This document shows positions 21,230 to 38,246 of a DNA stretch of 64,000 nt, in pieces; within the stretch, counting starts at the first letter, position 1, and each line of letters starts with the position of its first letter. The notes beneath the pieces were generated by a model that saw only the letters and a program-made list of their open reading frames with translations, made no database searches and had not been told where the DNA came from. Source of the DNA: an uncultured Eubacteriales bacterium (GTDB taxonomy: Bacteria; Bacillota; Clostridia; Oscillospirales; Acutalibacteraceae). The translations under genes were made by a program, and so were the position numbers. The stretch covers positions 1-64,000 of the forward strand of contig OMYH01000001.1 in the NCBI GenBank assembly GCA_900315255.1, in the 5' to 3' direction.

Positions 21230-22195
21230 ATGACTATAAACGGATATCAGTTTTCCATTTTTGATACAGTTGTTGACGGAACAACTGACAAAGGGGTGAA
21301 TAATGACCCCGCACCATTTAACTTTGATAATCTTTTTCTACGAAGAATAGGAAAAGAGCGAATGAATAGCGGGAATTCAATGGCTATATTGGGCGATAGT
21401 ATTGAAGTCCTCGAAGGAATGAAAGGTGATTCAGTAAACTTAATATTTGCAGATGCTCCGTACAATATTGGAAAAGATTTCGGCAATGATTCTGATAAGT
21501 GGGGATCTGTTCAAGACTATATCGAATGGTGCAAAAAATGGATCGACGAGTGCATGAGAGTTTTGTCTGACAATGGGACTATGTACTTTATGACCGCAAC
21601 TCAACATATGCCATATCTGGATATGTATGTTTCATCTAAGTACAATGTTCTTTGCAGGATCGTCTGGATTTATGACAGTTCAGGTGTGCAATCAAAGAAA
21701 ATGTTCGGTTCTCTTTACGAGCCTATATTGATGATCAATAAATCCTCAAAAGCTAAATATATATTTAACAGCAATGATATACTTGTTGAAGCAAAAACAG
21801 GTTCTCAAAGAAAACTAATTGATTACCGCAAAAATCCACCGCAGCCATACAGTACGGAAAAGGTCCCAGGCAATGTGTGGGAATTTAGCAGAGTAAGATT
21901 TAAGATGGATGAATATGAGAATCATCCAACTCAAAAGCCAGAAGCTTTATTGGAAAGAATAATCAAAGCATCCTCGAATAAAGGGGATGTTGTCCTGGAT
22001 CCTTTCTCTGGTTCATTTACTACATCTGCGGTTGCTATCCGATTGGGAAGAGTTGCAATTGGAATAGAACTAAATGAAGAGTATTATGAAATGGGGTTAA
22101 GACGAACTGGAATTGCATTTGAACGGAATGGCCATTCTCTTGAGAAAGAGAAAGCCAGAAAGACAAATGCAAAATCAAAATATGTGAGAGGGTAG
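21230..22195 (+). CDS. Type II DNA methyltransferase (N6-adenine/N4-cytosine beta-type)
   Basis: 321 residues, with ACAGGAGA upstream of ATG. It methylates DNA at a target site to protect it from the partner endonuclease. The order of motifs is catalytic first: VNLIFADAPYNIG (motif IV as DAPY, in place of the common DPPY), then a target-recognition region (about residues 150-215), then HPTQKPEALLERIIKASSN, the SAM-binding DPFSGSFTTSAVAIRLGR and GIELNEEYYEMGLRR. This order fits the beta class. The next gene begins 3 bp after its stop and is the likely endonuclease. AT-richer than the flanking housekeeping genes, suggesting acquisition by transfer. Recognition sequence not determined. Confidence 0.88.
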   Translation: MTINGYQFSIFDTVVDGTTDKGVNNDPAPFNFDNLFLRRIGKERMNSGNSMAILGDSIEVLEGMKGDSVNLIFADAPYNIGKDFGNDSDKWGSVQDYIEWCKKWIDECMRVLSDNGTMYFMTATQHMPYLDMYVSSKYNVLCRIVWIYDSSGVQSKKMFGSLYEPILMINKSSKAKYIFNSNDILVEAKTGSQRKLIDYRKNPPQPYSTEKVPGNVWEFSRVRFKMDEYENHPTQKPEALLERIIKASSNKGDVVLDPFSGSFTTSAVAIRLGRVAIGIELNEEYYEMGLRRTGIAFERNGHSLEKEKARKTNAKSKYVRG

Positions 22196-22198
22196 AAT

Positions 22199-23290
22199 AT
22201 GAAGATAACGGAAGATTTCATTAAAGAAATTTTGGCAGAGGATTATCCATCCGAGTATCAAAGTATCTATGATCAAAGCCTTCTTCTGCAATATCTGGAT
22301 AAAAAGATGAAAGCCGTTCATGGAAATAGTAAAACCAGAAGAAGCCTCGCAAATATTTACGCTATCTATTCGATTCTCTATTTTTATCAGTTTGATTTTT
22401 ATAATCAGCCTGATGCGTATCGACAGTTTGGCGGATATGATTATATGCGTCTGTTTAATTATTATCGGGGATTGTACGGTGGTAGTAAGCTGCAAAACCA
22501 TGCGTTAAACTCAAGGGTAAATGGAGAGTTTAAGAATAAGTTTCCCGATATTACCAACGATTTAATCATCATCGACAATGGCAAGTATTTGCTACACATT
22601 GATTATTTGTATGTTGGTAAGTACGACATTAGCAAAACATGTTGTAGGGTGATTGAAAAATATGTCGAGTTACTCATGGCAAAGGATCATGCTCTAATTA
22701 GCGTTCTCCAACAAATGGAATCCTTAACGGACTATGATGAGAAGAAAAAGCAAATCAATGCGCTATTAACCGAAGATGCCGAGGCTCGTATATTTGAGAT
22801 TATTAGTTATGCAATTTTGAAAAACCATTACAAAAACATAAAAGTATATTTTGGGTATTCTTTAGATAACATCAAAGAAGAAGAGCTGCAATTATATAAA
22901 ACTGGGCGCACAAATGCAAACGACGGAGGAATTGATTTTGTTATGCGCCCTGTCGGAAGATTTTTTCAAGTTACCGAAGTCAATAATTATGATAAGTATT
23001 TATTAGACATAGACAAAGTGCTCCATTTTCCGATTACTTTTGTCATCAAAACAAATCAGACAAAAAAGCGTGTATTGGTTGAACTTTCCGAATATATCGC
23101 CGTAAGGGCAAATGGAATGAAAGTAATTGAAGATAGGTACAATATGGCTATTGAAGAAATCATTACTATAAATGATTTGCAGCAATGGACATACGATTTA
23201 GATAATCCAGGCATTGATGAGATTCTCCGAGATATAGACATATACTATAAATTGGAAATGAACATGGATGCAGAGGATGAAGATGAATAA
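22199..23290 (+). CDS. Probable type II restriction endonuclease
   Basis: 363 residues, 3 bp after the methyltransferase stop. Position and pairing are the main evidence that it is the cognate endonuclease. A possible PD-(D/E)xK-type core lies at residues about 205-262: EARIFEIISYAILKNHYKN, then NANDGGIDFVM (Asp near 246) and RFFQVTEVNNY (Glu near 259); the usual catalytic Lys is not obvious. No helicase or HNH motif. Lys/Tyr/Ile-rich and AT-rich like the methyltransferase. No controller protein gene is seen. Function inferred. Confidence 0.7.
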   Translation: MKITEDFIKEILAEDYPSEYQSIYDQSLLLQYLDKKMKAVHGNSKTRRSLANIYAIYSILYFYQFDFYNQPDAYRQFGGYDYMRLFNYYRGLYGGSKLQNHALNSRVNGEFKNKFPDITNDLIIIDNGKYLLHIDYLYVGKYDISKTCCRVIEKYVELLMAKDHALISVLQQMESLTDYDEKKKQINALLTEDAEARIFEIISYAILKNHYKNIKVYFGYSLDNIKEEELQLYKTGRTNANDGGIDFVMRPVGRFFQVTEVNNYDKYLLDIDKVLHFPITFVIKTNQTKKRVLVELSEYIAVRANGMKVIEDRYNMAIEEIITINDLQQWTYDLDNPGIDEILRDIDIYYKLEMNMDAEDEDE

Positions 23291-23373: not shown

Positions 23374-23413
23374 GCGCAACTGAGAGCTTCATTACCTCTT
23401 AGTTGCGTTTTTC
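23374..23413 (+). terminator. First terminator after the R-M pair
   Basis: CGCAACT and AGTTGCG arms with an inner GAGAG/CTCTT stem, followed by TTTTTC. Lies in the 150-bp gap before cas5c. Confidence 0.75.
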
Positions 23414-23420
23414 AAACAAC

Positions 23421-23450
23421 AGGACCCCAGGTGGGGTCCTTTGTTTTATT
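23421..23450 (+). terminator. Second terminator, abutting the cas5c frame
   Basis: AGGACCCC, loop AGGT, GGGGTCCT, then TTGTTTTATT. The T-tract contains the TTG that is the only nominal start for the cas5c frame, so cas5c has no room for its own promoter. Confidence 0.85.
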
Positions 23451-24181
23451 CGTTCGGTTTTACAGCTTCACAGACTATTCGGATCAATTCTGATGTGCTT
23501 ACCCGTGTGGGGGGAGAGAAGTACAGCTACCCTATACCTACATATGAAGCGCTGAAAGGGATACTCCAGAGCGTCTATTTCAAACCGACCCTGATCTGGT
23601 ACATTGACGCTGTGCGTATTATGAACCCTATAAAGACCGTGCGAAAGGGGATCCGTCCTGTTAAATACGACGGAGGAAACGATCTTGCGTATTATAATTA
23701 TCTTGAAGATGTCTGTTATAAAGTAAGGGCGCACTTTGAGTGGAATTATAATCGACCCGAGCTTGAAGAAGACAGGAACGAACACAAACATCATAATATA
23801 GCCAGGCGCATGATCGAGCGAGGCGGCAGAAGGGATATTTTTCTCGGCACACGGGAATGTCAGGGGTATGTTGAGCCTTGTGATTTCGATGAAGGCGAGG
23901 GAGCTTATGATAAGGTGAATATGGACATGGCATTTATGTATTATGCCATAATATATCCCGATGAAGCCGAAAAGGAGGAGGATAAAGGATATATGACAGT
24001 ATGCTTCCGGCAGCCGAAAATGAAGGGCGGCGTGATAGAGTTTGTCAGACCGTCGGACATACCGCCCGAACACAAGCGTCATATCAAGAAAATGGAGATC
24101 AAAAAGTTCGGCAAAGATGATCAGAACTTTACAGGTCTTGGTGAGTTTGAGGGAGGTGAGCTTGATGAGCTGGACGAATGA
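23441..24181 (+). CDS. cas5c: CRISPR-associated Cas5c (type I-C), 5'-truncated
   Basis: Cas5c cuts pre-crRNA at the repeat hairpin and caps the 5' handle in type I-C Cascade. From DVLTRVGGEKYSYPIPTYEA onward the match to Cas5c is strong: LKGILQSVYFKPTLIWYID, RIMNPIKTVRKGIRPVKY, NEHKHHNIARR (Lys and His of the processing site) and RRDIFLGTRECQGYVEPC. The first 19 or so residues do not match the family, whose conserved first strand and YALFTDP-like segment are missing. No ATG or ribosome binding site exists; TTG 23441 lies in a terminator. The gene is therefore probably beheaded. It overlaps cas8c by 17 bp. cas3, normally upstream, is absent. Confidence 0.85.
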   Translation: MFYSFGFTASQTIRINSDVLTRVGGEKYSYPIPTYEALKGILQSVYFKPTLIWYIDAVRIMNPIKTVRKGIRPVKYDGGNDLAYYNYLEDVCYKVRAHFEWNYNRPELEEDRNEHKHHNIARRMIERGGRRDIFLGTRECQGYVEPCDFDEGEGAYDKVNMDMAFMYYAIIYPDEAEKEEDKGYMTVCFRQPKMKGGVIEFVRPSDIPPEHKRHIKKMEIKKFGKDDQNFTGLGEFEGGELDELDE

Positions 24182-26024
24182 ACTGTATAAGGTCTATGAA
24201 CTTGCGGCTTGTACTGATGACGGGAAGAATATGCTGCCGATCTCTCATTCAACAGCTCAGGCTCAGTTAGAAGTAACAGTAAATGAAGACGGGGATTTTG
24301 TCAGTGCAGAAATTGTAAATAAGGAAGATGCTAAAACCATCATACCCGTAACAGAGGATTCTGCTGCCCGCAGTAACGGAATAACTCCCATGCCGCTGGC
24401 GGATAAACTTGTATATATCGCAGGAGATTACGGAAGGTATTCCGAAGGTAAGCGCTCGGATAATGCCGATTATTATAACGCATATATGAAACAGCTTGGC
24501 GATTGGTGCGACAGCGATTATTCTCATTATGCAATAAGAGCTATCCGCACTTATCTTTCAAAGAAAGAACTTATCAAAGATCTTGTTGGCAGCGGAGTAA
24601 TAATACTTGATGAAAAGACCGGAAAGTTAAGCAACAAAAAATTTGGTGCAGTATCGCAGGAAGACGCTTTTGTAAGATTCATTGTCAGCGGGGAAAACGG
24701 CATATGTAATACATGGGAGGATTCCGGATTGCGTGATTGTTTTAGAAAGTATTATGAAGAATCACTCGGTGATGAAAGCTTATGTTATGCCGACGGAACA
24801 ATGGCGGCAGCTACATACAAGCACCCTGCCAAAATAAGAAACAGCAGAGATCAAGCGAAGCTTATTTCGGCAAACGATACATCTAACTATACATTCCGAG
24901 GACGATTCTCAACTAAAGAGGAAGCTGTTTCGGTAAGCTATGAGTATTCACAAAAGATGCATAATGCTCTGAAATGGCTGATAGAGCGAGAGCTTGTGAC
25001 AAGGTCTGACGGTAAAGGGAAGACGATAACTTTCAATCCGATGGCTTTTGATTCTCTGACTCTGATAGTGTGGAACAGTGCATTGAAATTTGTTCCGAGT
25101 GTGATCGAATCAGCTTTTGAAGTGATCGAAGAGGAATACAGCTCAGTTCCGGAGTTCTCGAAGATGATCCACAAAAAGCTGATGGGCGGAAAGGCGGAAT
25201 TTAAACCCGACAGCAAGGTCATGTTAATGGGACTGGACGCTGCAACCCCCGGCAGACTGTCGATCGCAATGTATACCGAGCTTTCGGAATCACAGTTTGC
25301 TGCCAATCTGGAAAAATGGCATAAGAACACAGCTTGGTGGCGATTTAACACGAAGCTGAAAAAAACGATCCCCGATTCATGCAGTCTTCTGCAAATCGCA
25401 AACTGTCTGTACGGAACGGAGAAGGAAGGACGCCTTGAGTGTGATAAAAAGCTGCTCAAAGCTACGATACTTCGCTTATTGCCGTGCGTATCGGAAGGCA
25501 GAAAGATTCCGAGAGATATTGTCACAACTCTGGTGAACAGAGCGGCAACACCGTTGTCATTTGAGAAGGAGTATAATCACAGGATTATCGTTGAAAATGC
25601 CTGCGCGCTTATTTCCAAAGAATATAAAGATTATAACAAAGGAGAGATCAGGATGGCTTACGATCCAAATTGTACCGACCGCAGTTATCTTTTCGGATGC
25701 TTGCTTGCAATAGCCGATAAAGCCGAAAGAGATACATATGAAAAGGACGAAAAACGTATTACAAACGCAAGACGTTTGTGGAATGCTTTTTCCGCAAGAC
25801 CTTATCAGACATGGCAGATCATCGAAGAAAGGCTTGAACCGTATCTTGAAAAAGAGCCTTGGGTAATGACAAAATACACAAAGCGCCTTAATGAGATAAT
25901 GGCAAAACTTTCACTCAAGGACTTTGCCGATAACAGCAAGCTTTCGCCTATGTATCTGATAGGATATCATCACTACGATACGATGCTCCGGAACGGAAAA
26001 GAAGAAATCAACGAGGAGGAATAA
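24165..26024 (+). CDS. cas8c: CRISPR-associated Cas8c (Csd1), type I-C large subunit
   Basis: 619 residues from ATG 24165, with GGGAGGTGAG just upstream; the frame is open earlier only because it overlaps cas5c. Cas8c is the large Cascade subunit that reads the PAM. Family features include YELAACTDDGKNMLPISHST, the MPLADKLVYIAGDYG block, LKWLIERELVT, VIVWNSA-like LTLIVWNSALKF, MLMGLDAATPGRLSIAMYTE, WHKNTAWWRF and PRDIVTTLVNRAATPLSFE. Length is normal and no frameshift is seen. Stop is 3 bp before cas7c. Confidence 0.93.
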   Translation: MSWTNELYKVYELAACTDDGKNMLPISHSTAQAQLEVTVNEDGDFVSAEIVNKEDAKTIIPVTEDSAARSNGITPMPLADKLVYIAGDYGRYSEGKRSDNADYYNAYMKQLGDWCDSDYSHYAIRAIRTYLSKKELIKDLVGSGVIILDEKTGKLSNKKFGAVSQEDAFVRFIVSGENGICNTWEDSGLRDCFRKYYEESLGDESLCYADGTMAAATYKHPAKIRNSRDQAKLISANDTSNYTFRGRFSTKEEAVSVSYEYSQKMHNALKWLIERELVTRSDGKGKTITFNPMAFDSLTLIVWNSALKFVPSVIESAFEVIEEEYSSVPEFSKMIHKKLMGGKAEFKPDSKVMLMGLDAATPGRLSIAMYTELSESQFAANLEKWHKNTAWWRFNTKLKKTIPDSCSLLQIANCLYGTEKEGRLECDKKLLKATILRLLPCVSEGRKIPRDIVTTLVNRAATPLSFEKEYNHRIIVENACALISKEYKDYNKGEIRMAYDPNCTDRSYLFGCLLAIADKAERDTYEKDEKRITNARRLWNAFSARPYQTWQIIEERLEPYLEKEPWVMTKYTKRLNEIMAKLSLKDFADNSKLSPMYLIGYHHYDTMLRNGKEEINEEE

Positions 26025-26027
26025 AAA

Positions 26028-26885
26028 ATGGCAGTACTTCAGAATAAGATCGATTTTTCGGTGATAATAACCGCAAAAAATGCAAACCCCAACGGTGATC
26101 CCCTGAACGGTAATCGTCCGAGGGAAAACTATGACGGCTACGGCGAGATAAGTGATGTTTGTATCAAGAGGAAGATCCGCAATCGTCTTCAGGATATGGG
26201 CGAAAAGATCTTCGTGCAGTCCGACGACAAACGTAATGATGAGTTTAAGAGCCTTCATGATCGGGCAAAGGGCTGCGAGACTCTTGCGGCGCTAAGCAAG
26301 CAGAAGAACACCAATCGTGATGAATACGCAAAAGCTGCTTGTAATGAATGGATAGATGTACGGAGCTTCGGGCAGGTGTTTGCATTCAAGGGTGACCCCG
26401 TTTCTGTCGGCGTAAGAGGACCTGTGACTATTCAGCAGGCTGTAAGTGTGACGCCGATAGACATAACAAGTATGCAGATAACCAAAAGCGTTAACGGTGA
26501 AAGCGGAAAAGAGGGCAAGGCTTCTGATACTATGGGAACAAAGCACAGGGTCGATTTCGGAGTGTATGTAGCTCACGGCAGTATCAACGTACAGCTCGCA
26601 GAGAAAACAGGTTTTACAGAAGAGGATGCCGAAAAAATAAAGCTTGCGCTTGAAACGCTGTTTGAAAACGACTGTTCTTCCGCAAGACCCGAAGGCAGCA
26701 TGGAGGTCAGGCGGTTGTATTGGTATAAGCATGAAGGCAAAACACCAAAGTATTCTTCTGCAAAAGTACATCGTCTGCTTAGCGTAACTCTGAAAGACGG
26801 TGTTGACAGACCCGGATGCTTTGAGGATTATGATATTAAGCTTGAAAAAGCCGAAGGATTGGAGCCGGAGATATTTGAGGGCTGA
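26028..26885 (+). CDS. cas7c: CRISPR-associated Cas7c (Csd2), type I-C backbone subunit
   Basis: 285 residues, normal length, with GAGGAGG upstream. Cas7 forms the filament that holds the crRNA spacer in Cascade. Recognised by NKIDFSVIITAKNANPNGDP then LNGNRPREN near the N terminus, DVCIKRKIRNRLQDMG, the SVGVRGPVTIQQAVSVTPID block and DFGVYVAHGSINVQLAEKTG. The coding frame is intact. Separated by 1 bp from cas4. Confidence 0.96.
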   Translation: MAVLQNKIDFSVIITAKNANPNGDPLNGNRPRENYDGYGEISDVCIKRKIRNRLQDMGEKIFVQSDDKRNDEFKSLHDRAKGCETLAALSKQKNTNRDEYAKAACNEWIDVRSFGQVFAFKGDPVSVGVRGPVTIQQAVSVTPIDITSMQITKSVNGESGKEGKASDTMGTKHRVDFGVYVAHGSINVQLAEKTGFTEEDAEKIKLALETLFENDCSSARPEGSMEVRRLYWYKHEGKTPKYSSAKVHRLLSVTLKDGVDRPGCFEDYDIKLEKAEGLEPEIFEG

Positions 26886-26886
26886 T

Positions 26887-27633
26887 ATGTACAGCGAAGA
26901 TGAATACCTCATGCTGTCGGGACTGCAGCATTTTGTGTTTTGCCGCAGGCAATGGGCGCTGATCCATATCGAACAGCAGTGGGAAGAGAATTATCGTACA
27001 GCTGACGGACAAGTTATGCATAGAAATGTCCATGACGCAGACTTCCGCGAAAAACGAGGGGATACCATTATAGCGAGAGCTATGGCTGTATCTTCTTCAA
27101 GGCTTGGGATCAGCGGAGAGTGTGATGTGGTTGAGTTCCGTAAAAGCAAAGACGGAATTGAGCTTTTTGGCGTTGAAGGTAAATATGACGTGATACCTAT
27201 CGAATACAAGAGAGGTTCGCCAAAAGAGAACAGCAGCGATATTATGCAGCTTGCGGCACAGGCTATGTGTCTTGAAGAGATGCTTTGCTGTGATATAAGC
27301 GCGGGTTATCTTTATTACGGAGAGATCCGCAGACGAACAAAGGTGGTAATAGACGCCGGACTTCGTGAGCGCACGGAAAAAGCAATAGAAGAGATGCACG
27401 AACTTTATCGGAAGCAGTATACACCCAAAGTCAAGCGCACAAAAGCCTGCATGCTGTTCAAAAGGTACTGTCTCTCCCCACACGGGGAGAGTGGATTGAA
27501 ATCCGATAGTAACACAAGTGCCAGACCCGGAAAGAGTCTCTCCCCACACGGGGAGAGTGGATTGAAATTTTGTAATTCGATGTTATTAACAGAAGGCTGG
27601 GACGTCTCTCCCCACACGGGGAGAGTGGATTGA
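26887..27633 (+). CDS. cas4: CRISPR-associated Cas4, 3' end replaced by the CRISPR array
   Basis: Starts at ATG 26887, one base after the cas7c stop. Cas4 is a RecB-type nuclease that trims prespacers with Cas1-Cas2. Present: LSGLQHFVFCRRQWALIHIE (first Cys ligand), HRNVHD, GISGECDVVEF (catalytic Asp) and PIEYKRG (catalytic E-x-K). The C-terminal three-Cys cluster is not complete: after KVKRTKAC and MLFKRY the frame enters the first CRISPR repeat at 27470 and reads through three repeats (LSPHGESGLK twice) to a TGA at 27633. The native stop, cas1, cas2 and the leader are gone. Fe-S binding and activity are doubtful. Confidence 0.88.
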   Translation: MYSEDEYLMLSGLQHFVFCRRQWALIHIEQQWEENYRTADGQVMHRNVHDADFREKRGDTIIARAMAVSSSRLGISGECDVVEFRKSKDGIELFGVEGKYDVIPIEYKRGSPKENSSDIMQLAAQAMCLEEMLCCDISAGYLYYGEIRRRTKVVIDAGLRERTEKAIEEMHELYRKQYTPKVKRTKACMLFKRYCLSPHGESGLKSDSNTSARPGKSLSPHGESGLKFCNSMLLTEGWDVSPHTGRVD

Positions 27634-27905
27634 AATAAAGTATAAAGATCCCGACATAAAAATAAAGGAAGTCTCTCCCCACACGGGGAGAGTGGATTGA
27701 AATGGAGGATTAGTGAGAACATTATCGGCAGGGAAAAGGTCTCTCCCCACACGGGGAGAGTGGATTGAAATCGCTAATTACAACCATTGATGATGTAACC
27801 ATGTTGTCTCTCCCCACACGGGGAGAGTGGATTGAAATTGAATAAATAGGTCTACGCCCTCTCTCACCATATGTCTCTCCCCACACGGGGAGAGTGGATT
27901 GAAAT
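27470..27905 (+). CRISPR. Type I-C CRISPR array, seven identical 33-bp repeats, no leader
   Basis: Repeats start at 27470, 27536, 27604, 27671, 27739, 27806 and 27873. Each begins GTCTCTCCCC, has a CTCTCCCC/GGGGAGAG hairpin and ends GTGGATTGAAAT, the type I-C form. Six spacers are 33, 35, 34, 35, 34 and 34 bp and all differ. All repeats look identical, including the last. The array follows the cas4 frame directly with no AT-rich leader. Orientation (plus strand) is set by the GATTGAAA end as 5' handle. Transcription would have to come from the cas genes. Confidence 0.97.
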
Positions 27906-28097
27906 CACGTGGGTATGTTAGTTATTTATTTATTTTATCGTCCGTGCCGCTTGATCTGCTGCTGTTAGAATTTTGGGTGTTTTTTGACTGGACGGATGTT
28001 GACAATTCCACCCTGTTTGTTATTTCCGAACCGTCAGAAACCAATATCGAACAAAAACTGATCAAGATCATATTGCTTACTGTATAGGACTTGTTTA
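27906..28097. other. Non-coding stretch after the array
   Basis: About 190 bp. The plus-strand frame from 27899 starts inside the last repeat and has no ribosome binding site, so I do not call it a gene. No leader, cas gene fragment, tRNA or repeat was recognised. Confidence 0.5.
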
Positions 28098-30523: not shown

Positions 30524-30679
30524 TTAAGGAGACACTGATTAAATCGAGTGCCGAAGTTGCGCCGTCAGATTTTCAGACAAATTGTTCGAAAAATCTGCAG
30601 GAATACTGACGTATTTCAAGGAATGCAAGCAAATTTGGTGCTCAGTCCGAAGGACGTGATTTATTCAGTGGTTCCTTAA
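30524..30679 (+). mobile_element. MITE-like element, copy 1
   Basis: About 156 bp bounded by inverted ends: TTAAGGAGACACTGATTAAA on the left and TTATTCAGTGGTTCCTTAA on the right, with TTAA at both edges. Internal blocks GTGCCGAAGTTGCGCCGTCA, ATACTGACGTATTTCAA and TTTGGTGCTCAGTCCGAAGG are shared with copies at 33479 and 38090. No coding capacity. Confidence 0.85.
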
Positions 30680-30726
30680 GGCGCTGCCTCTGTGTGGCGT
30701 TGCCTTAAAGAAAGGAAATGGTCAAA

Positions 30727-33478: not shown

Positions 33479-33660
33479 GAGGGAACCACTGATTAAATCA
33501 CGTCCTTCGGACTGAGCACCAAATTTGCTTGCATCTTTTTGTCAAATTGCACTCAAAATCCTTGAAATACGTCAGTATTATTCCTGCGGATTTTTCGCAC
33601 AATTTGCCTAAAAATCTGACGGCGCAACTTCGGCACTCGATTAAATCAGTGTCTCCCTAG
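33479..33660 (-). mobile_element. MITE-like element, copy 2 (reverse orientation)
   Basis: About 182 bp. Left end GGGAACCACTGATTAAATCA and right end ATTAAATCAGTGTCTCCCTA are the family ends, with outer bases changed. It carries the same internal blocks as copies 1 and 3 in reverse, plus about 25 extra bases near the middle (around TTTTTGTCAAATTGCACTC). Follows the histidine kinase gene. Confidence 0.85.
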
Positions 33661-37697: not shown

Positions 37698-38089
37698 GTA
37701 ATTTCAACGGTGGCTGCGTAAACCATGTCACCGAAATAACTGCCGGTACATATCCCTGAAATATTCCGGGAGAAACAAAAGTCCGAAGATGAAAATTCAG
37801 ATGTTTTTGCAGCCGTTCATGAATGAGCGACTGCGATTTTTTTCTTAAAAACTGCTGAAAGGGTCATGCTCTTGCAGCAAGTTTTTAATCCGCAGCCGTT
37901 TGTCACTGCGAGAATATCGTATTTTAAAGGGTAATTCGCATAATAACCAAACGTTTTCGTGTATATTTACCTCAATTTGTAACATTTGTGGTTTGTTTTC
38001 AGAGCGTTTATATGATAAAATTGATATTGTCGAGAAAAATGTCTAATTGTGTACGCAGACTGACGTTTACTTTTATATAATTTGTTTTA
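37698..38089. other. Non-coding region before the opp operon
   Basis: About 390 bp with no supported ORF. It holds a weak CCCTGAAATATTCCGGG palindrome near 37751 and AT-rich tracts with possible -10 boxes (near 38075) whose -35 boxes are poor. No riboswitch or RNA family was recognised. Confidence 0.5.
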
Positions 38090-38246
38090 TTAAGGAGACA
38101 CTGATTAAATCGAGTGCCGAAGTTGCGCCGTCAGATTTTTAGGCAAATTGTGCGAAAAATCCGCAGGAATACTGACGTATTTCAAAAAGATGCAAGCAAA
38201 TTTGGTGCTCAGTCCGAAGGACGTGATTTAATCAGTGTCTCCTTAA
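38090..38246 (+). mobile_element. MITE-like element, copy 3 (most intact)
   Basis: 157 bp. The ends TTAAGGAGACACTGATTAAA and TTTAATCAGTGTCTCCTTAA are perfect inverted repeats of more than 20 bp, with TTAA at both edges. Internal sequence agrees closely with copy 1. It lies 155 bp before oppB and could shape opp expression by adding a hairpin or promoter elements. Confidence 0.9.

Follow-up and report, generated by a model that had tools for sequence, protein, structure and literature searches.

Type I-C CRISPR-Cas systems rely on Cas5c, which cuts the pre-crRNA, and on Cas3, which degrades the targets. Cas4 works together with Cas1-Cas2 in prespacer processing, and the normal point of attack of the I-C Cas1-Cas2 complex is the border between the leader and the first repeat (PMC6519985). 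The two nearest relatives of the locus described here, both from the same genus, keep the intact order cas3-cas5-cas8c-cas7-cas4-cas1-cas2-leader-array. One is locus L032 on contig C89 of genome G004, the other is locus L033/L088 on contig C20 of genome G003, which is the Ruminococcus MAG RUG13064. Most of 80 further public I-C loci have the same gene order, with the first repeat usually located about 150-200 nt past cas2. Nearly all leaders listed (about 58 type I-C loci) carry TTTGC[T/A/G] directly before the first repeat, and this motif at the repeat border can serve to recognise I-C leaders that are intact. Cas4 and Cas5c of the intact relatives are clear homologues of the type I-C Cas4 (8D3L) and Cas5d (BH0337, 4F3M) of B. 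halodurans.

The window, a stretch of 64,000 nt, is part of the 127.5-kb contig C113 of a draft genome of 2.69 Mb (137 contigs, 99.85% complete). Its host is a rumen-type Ruminococcus in which the middle part of a type I-C locus is left while both ends have been cut off (Table 1). The cas5c-cas8c-cas7-cas4 order is shared with G003 and G004, and DNA identity over this shared core is 82-87%. Both relatives keep cas3, complete cas5 and cas4 genes, cas1, cas2 and a leader of about 150-190 nt, all of which have been lost in the window. As the relatives have retained the intact order, the loss occurred in the lineage of the window. Very probably, the locus is what remains of an ordinary type I-C locus after recent truncation through three or more breaks, and it is most likely inactive. 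At least this number is needed because cas3 with the start of cas5, the segment from cas4 to the leader, and the distal end of the array have all been lost. Starting from a full ancestral locus, as in the two relatives, one break would have removed cas3 and the cas5 start, a restriction-modification cassette now preceding the cas remnant. A second would have taken away everything from the cas4 tail through cas1 and cas2 to the leader, perhaps with the newest spacers, and a third would have cut off the far portion of the array, where an IS3-like stub now lies. Sequence is missing at each of the three joints; the order of the breaks and the processes behind them (illegitimate recombination, IS activity) we infer.

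Table 1 Features of the truncated type I-C locus and its surroundings in the window
Feature	Position	Strand	Remarks
Type II DNA methyltransferase (N6/N4 class)	21230..22195	+	Pfam PF01555, E 9e-57; PADLOC MTase_II; GC 0.37
Type II restriction endonuclease	22199..23290	+	PADLOC REase_II, E 1.5e-82; GC about 0.35
Strong intrinsic terminator	23421..23440	+	AGGACCCC-AGGT-GGGGTCCT, then TTGTTTT; RNA fold z -5.1 (23405-23455)
Joint A, between foreign DNA and cas5 codon ~22	23487..23488	.	Homology to L032/L033 from 23488-23489
cas5c, 5'-truncated	23488..24181	+	TIGR01876; first ~21 aa lost; compare L032:2877-3629
cas8c (csd1), intact	24042..26024	+	PF09709, E 2e-108; no stops; branch nonsynonymous/synonymous ratio 0.14
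cas7 (csd2), intact	26028..26885	+	TIGR02589; branch ratio 0.01
cas4, 3'-truncated	26887..27469	+	Cut in C-terminal Cys motif, tail lost; homologous to 8D3L Cas4
Joint B, cas4 to repeat 1	27453..27470	+	Includes 15-17 nt of uncertain origin
CRISPR array	27470..27905	+	7 identical 33-nt repeats, 6 spacers, no leader
34 nt, spacer-sized, no repeat after	27906..27939	+	
Joint C and 71-nt end of IS3-like insertion sequence	27940..28010	-	Family assigned by eye

The repeats of the window array, GTCTCTCCCCACACGGGGAGAGTGGATTGAAAT, start at 27470, 27536, 27604, 27671, 27739, 27806 and 27873. They are of the I-C type, ending in GATTGAAAT, and the spacers between them measure 33-35 nt each. The 33-nt repeat of G003 is identical and that of G004 differs by one base; the G003 array contains about 105 repeats as against the seven in the window. 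A whole-genome search revealed no second copy of the repeat in the rest of the genome, no protospacers for the spacers were found in IMG/VR using 24-nt exact cores, and Rfam models gave no match in the window at gathering thresholds.

An earlier note on this DNA had described a cas4 frame that runs directly into a leaderless array, and this description holds. From its ATG at 26887 the frame stays open into repeat 1 and reaches its first stop at 27631-27633, inside repeat 3, after two LSPHGESGLK segments. Neither cas1 nor cas2 nor a leader is present between cas4 and the array; the last bases before repeat 1 are AAAGGTACT, and the TTTGC leader-end motif is absent. The C-terminal Cys motif of Cas4, which is KACNACSLKNICLP in the relatives, has become KACMLFKRYC in the window, and homology to the relatives fades within it, at about 27454-27459. 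Compared with B. halodurans Cas4 (8D3L), the window protein is without the CxxCSLxxxCLP end. The proposed loss of the cas4 tail, cas1, cas2 and the leader was supported by comparison with related genomes, as the intact segment is present in G004 and G003. The open cas4-array frame came about as a side effect of joint B. Such a frame is little more than could be expected by chance, since the window repeat is free of stops in two of its three phases. Selection for it was considered and rejected on the same grounds.

The sequence of joint B, TACTGTCTCTCC, matches that in the earlier note. The last 15-17 nt or so before repeat 1 resemble the cas4 genes of the relatives weakly (p = 0.02-0.09); when anchored at TGTCT, p is 0.016 against G004 cas4, 0.076 against G003 and 0.036 when the better relative is taken. 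Of the suggested match of TGTCT between cas4 and the repeat start, the pentanucleotide itself was recovered at the corresponding position of cas4 in G004, whereas G003 has TGCCT there and the flanking 15-17 nt are only marginally cas4-like. No clear source of these nucleotides was found in the missing cas4-to-array DNA of G003 and G004. A microhomology joint at TGTCT is possible and, equally possibly, the 15-17 nt are the leftover tail of a deleted spacer. The earlier note attributed the fusion of cas4 to the array to one deletion, which a short TGTCT match at the joint would fit, and suggested that the array is now transcribed at the end of the cas mRNA, as an unusual source of crRNA. The contiguity of the cas4 frame and the array on the same strand is in line with this proposal, as are the TGTCT in G004 cas4, the weak cas4 likeness of the last 15 nt (the p values for G004 and for the better relative) and the conserved cas5c, cas8c and cas7 open reading frames. 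It is nonetheless highly improbable, since a single deletion does not account for three or more joints: cas3 and the start of cas5 have also disappeared, homology beginning at 23488, and the distal array has been cut at the IS3-like stub.

The region upstream of the cas remnant argues against expression as well. The DNA preceding 23488, with the restriction-modification pair, has a GC content of 0.35-0.37 as compared to 0.43-0.46 in the cas genes, and nothing substantial homologous to 21230-23290 was found in 21 congeners. The type II cassette, which has its own terminator, was probably acquired horizontally. The end of this terminator precedes the start of the cas5 homology by 47 nt. At joint A, cas3 is missing altogether and cas5 lacks its start; the cas5 frame extends back merely to a TTG at 23441, with no obvious Shine-Dalgarno sequence. 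The segment of Cas5c that has been lost aligns, in an intact relative, with the start of B. halodurans Cas5d (BH0337, 4F3M), from residue 4 of the chain. Since the original operon start is gone, a terminator lies just upstream and Cas5c is short of about 21 residues, transcription of the array as a cas mRNA tail is unlikely. Judging from the sequence, the loss of the N-terminal part of Cas5c would probably make crRNA processing impossible, and crRNA production from the window array, as put forward in the earlier note, is unlikely.

Searches of the whole genome gave no Cas1 (the family was detected in control genomes), no Cas2 (the same query was positive in congeners) and no I-C Cas3 (the same query was positive in G003, G004 and G015). 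The lack of a Cas3 is a further point against the crRNA route proposed in the earlier note. Of the cas4-cas1-cas2 adaptation module, only the truncated cas4 is thus left, and its product has no Cas1-Cas2 partners. Without cas1, cas2 or a leader, spacer acquisition is impossible for the locus and, without cas3, so is target degradation through Cas3.

The presence of three joints within 4.5 kb of a 137-contig draft, with repeats and an IS end close by, could point to a misassembly of two or three DNA pieces. Such an artefact is very unlikely. At joints A and B, the overlap with the intact gene order of the relatives is nowhere long, amounting to about 5 nt at most (joint B). A de Bruijn assembler could presumably not have bridged so short a stretch unless real reads spanned it. 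The missing pieces were not found in the rest of the genome either, and a comparable joint is present in an assembly unrelated to this one. This is contig JAFLUD010000050.1 (L109) of the Oscillospiraceae MAG HAN070, with a cas1-to-array joint at L109:9405-11773. Here, cas1 has been cut after about 146 aa, and its reading frame continues into a type I-C array that has at least 29 repeats and no leader; no other Cas1 was found in the L109 genome. As in the window, the frame of an interrupted cas gene carries on into an I-C array without a leader, but the cut is in cas1 instead of cas4 and cas3 to cas4 are present. With these genes and an array of this size, interference may still work in L109. 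The two cases together indicate that cas-to-array deletions stripping cas1, cas2 and the leader recur independently. A search of the literature on leaderless arrays and cas-array fusions yielded nothing directly on point.

The likeness of the two joints also bears on the possibility that Cas1-Cas2 itself joined a broken cas-gene end to the leader-side edge of the repeat, thereby deleting the segment between them. This would explain joint B and is compatible with the locus being a relic. Both in the window and in L109, the cas1/cas2-leader side has been lost up to an intact first repeat, the sequence GTACT is found just before the repeat, and the leader-repeat border is where I-C Cas1-Cas2 normally acts (PMC6519985). 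Only two cases are at hand, however, the shared GTACT may be due to chance, and about one in two breaks within spacers would likewise leave an intact repeat; the involvement of Cas1-Cas2 is therefore considered most improbable. The same low probability is given to the broader proposal that Cas1-Cas2 can remove its own genes together with the leader, as a recurrent 'self-sterilising' event after which the array is frozen; the window and L109 would then each have arisen independently in this way.

What is left of the effector module is well preserved. The products of cas5c, cas8c and cas7 match TIGR01876, TIGR01863 and TIGR02589 above the curated cut-offs and identify the effector genes as those of type I-C, albeit with cas5c truncated at its 5' end; the true start of cas8c may be near 24178. 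When changes on the window branch were counted against the other two genomes, the ratio of amino-acid to silent changes was 0.01-0.14, without stops, in the remainders of cas5 and cas4 and in cas8c and cas7. The truncations are thus recent, as the surviving genes do not show decay and selection has acted over most of the period since the genomes diverged. Low ratios and the lack of stops, though expected after a recent truncation, could also fit a locus that is still in use, which is the main point against regarding it as a relic. The retention in Cas5c of the Lys-His pair of the NEHKHH motif, which is catalytic in B. halodurans Cas5d, counts in the same direction. As a truncated remnant, the locus provides a well-bracketed snapshot of a dying CRISPR locus, in that comparison with the relatives reveals precisely which parts are gone, and the survivors have not yet decayed. 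Should the remnant be expressed after all, it would test whether another promoter can feed a leaderless array.

The distal end of the array has also been cut, as the last repeat is followed by 34 nt and then by the IS3-like stub. These 34 nt are probably a seventh spacer or the remnant of one. The 71-nt stub recurs elsewhere in the same genome (G000:C74) and in four congeners, several of the copies lying near contig ends; it is 96-100% identical in G000:C74, G018, G006 and, in part, G015. In locus L079 the frame adjoining the stub resembles the C-terminus of an IS3-type transposase (...YYNTLRVNSFNPGGLPPVAYR). The flanks of the locus are conserved in congeners, on the left to about 20940 and on the right from 28969. 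They are on different contigs in the relatives, and this explains why no simple empty site was found in congeners. To the right of the stub, at 30524-30680, a dispersed, MITE-like palindromic element of about 156 nt with TTAAGGA terminal inverted repeats is present (fold z -5.9). More than 10 copies of this element occur in the genome, among them two more in the window (33482-33660 and 38089-38246), and many are found across the genus.
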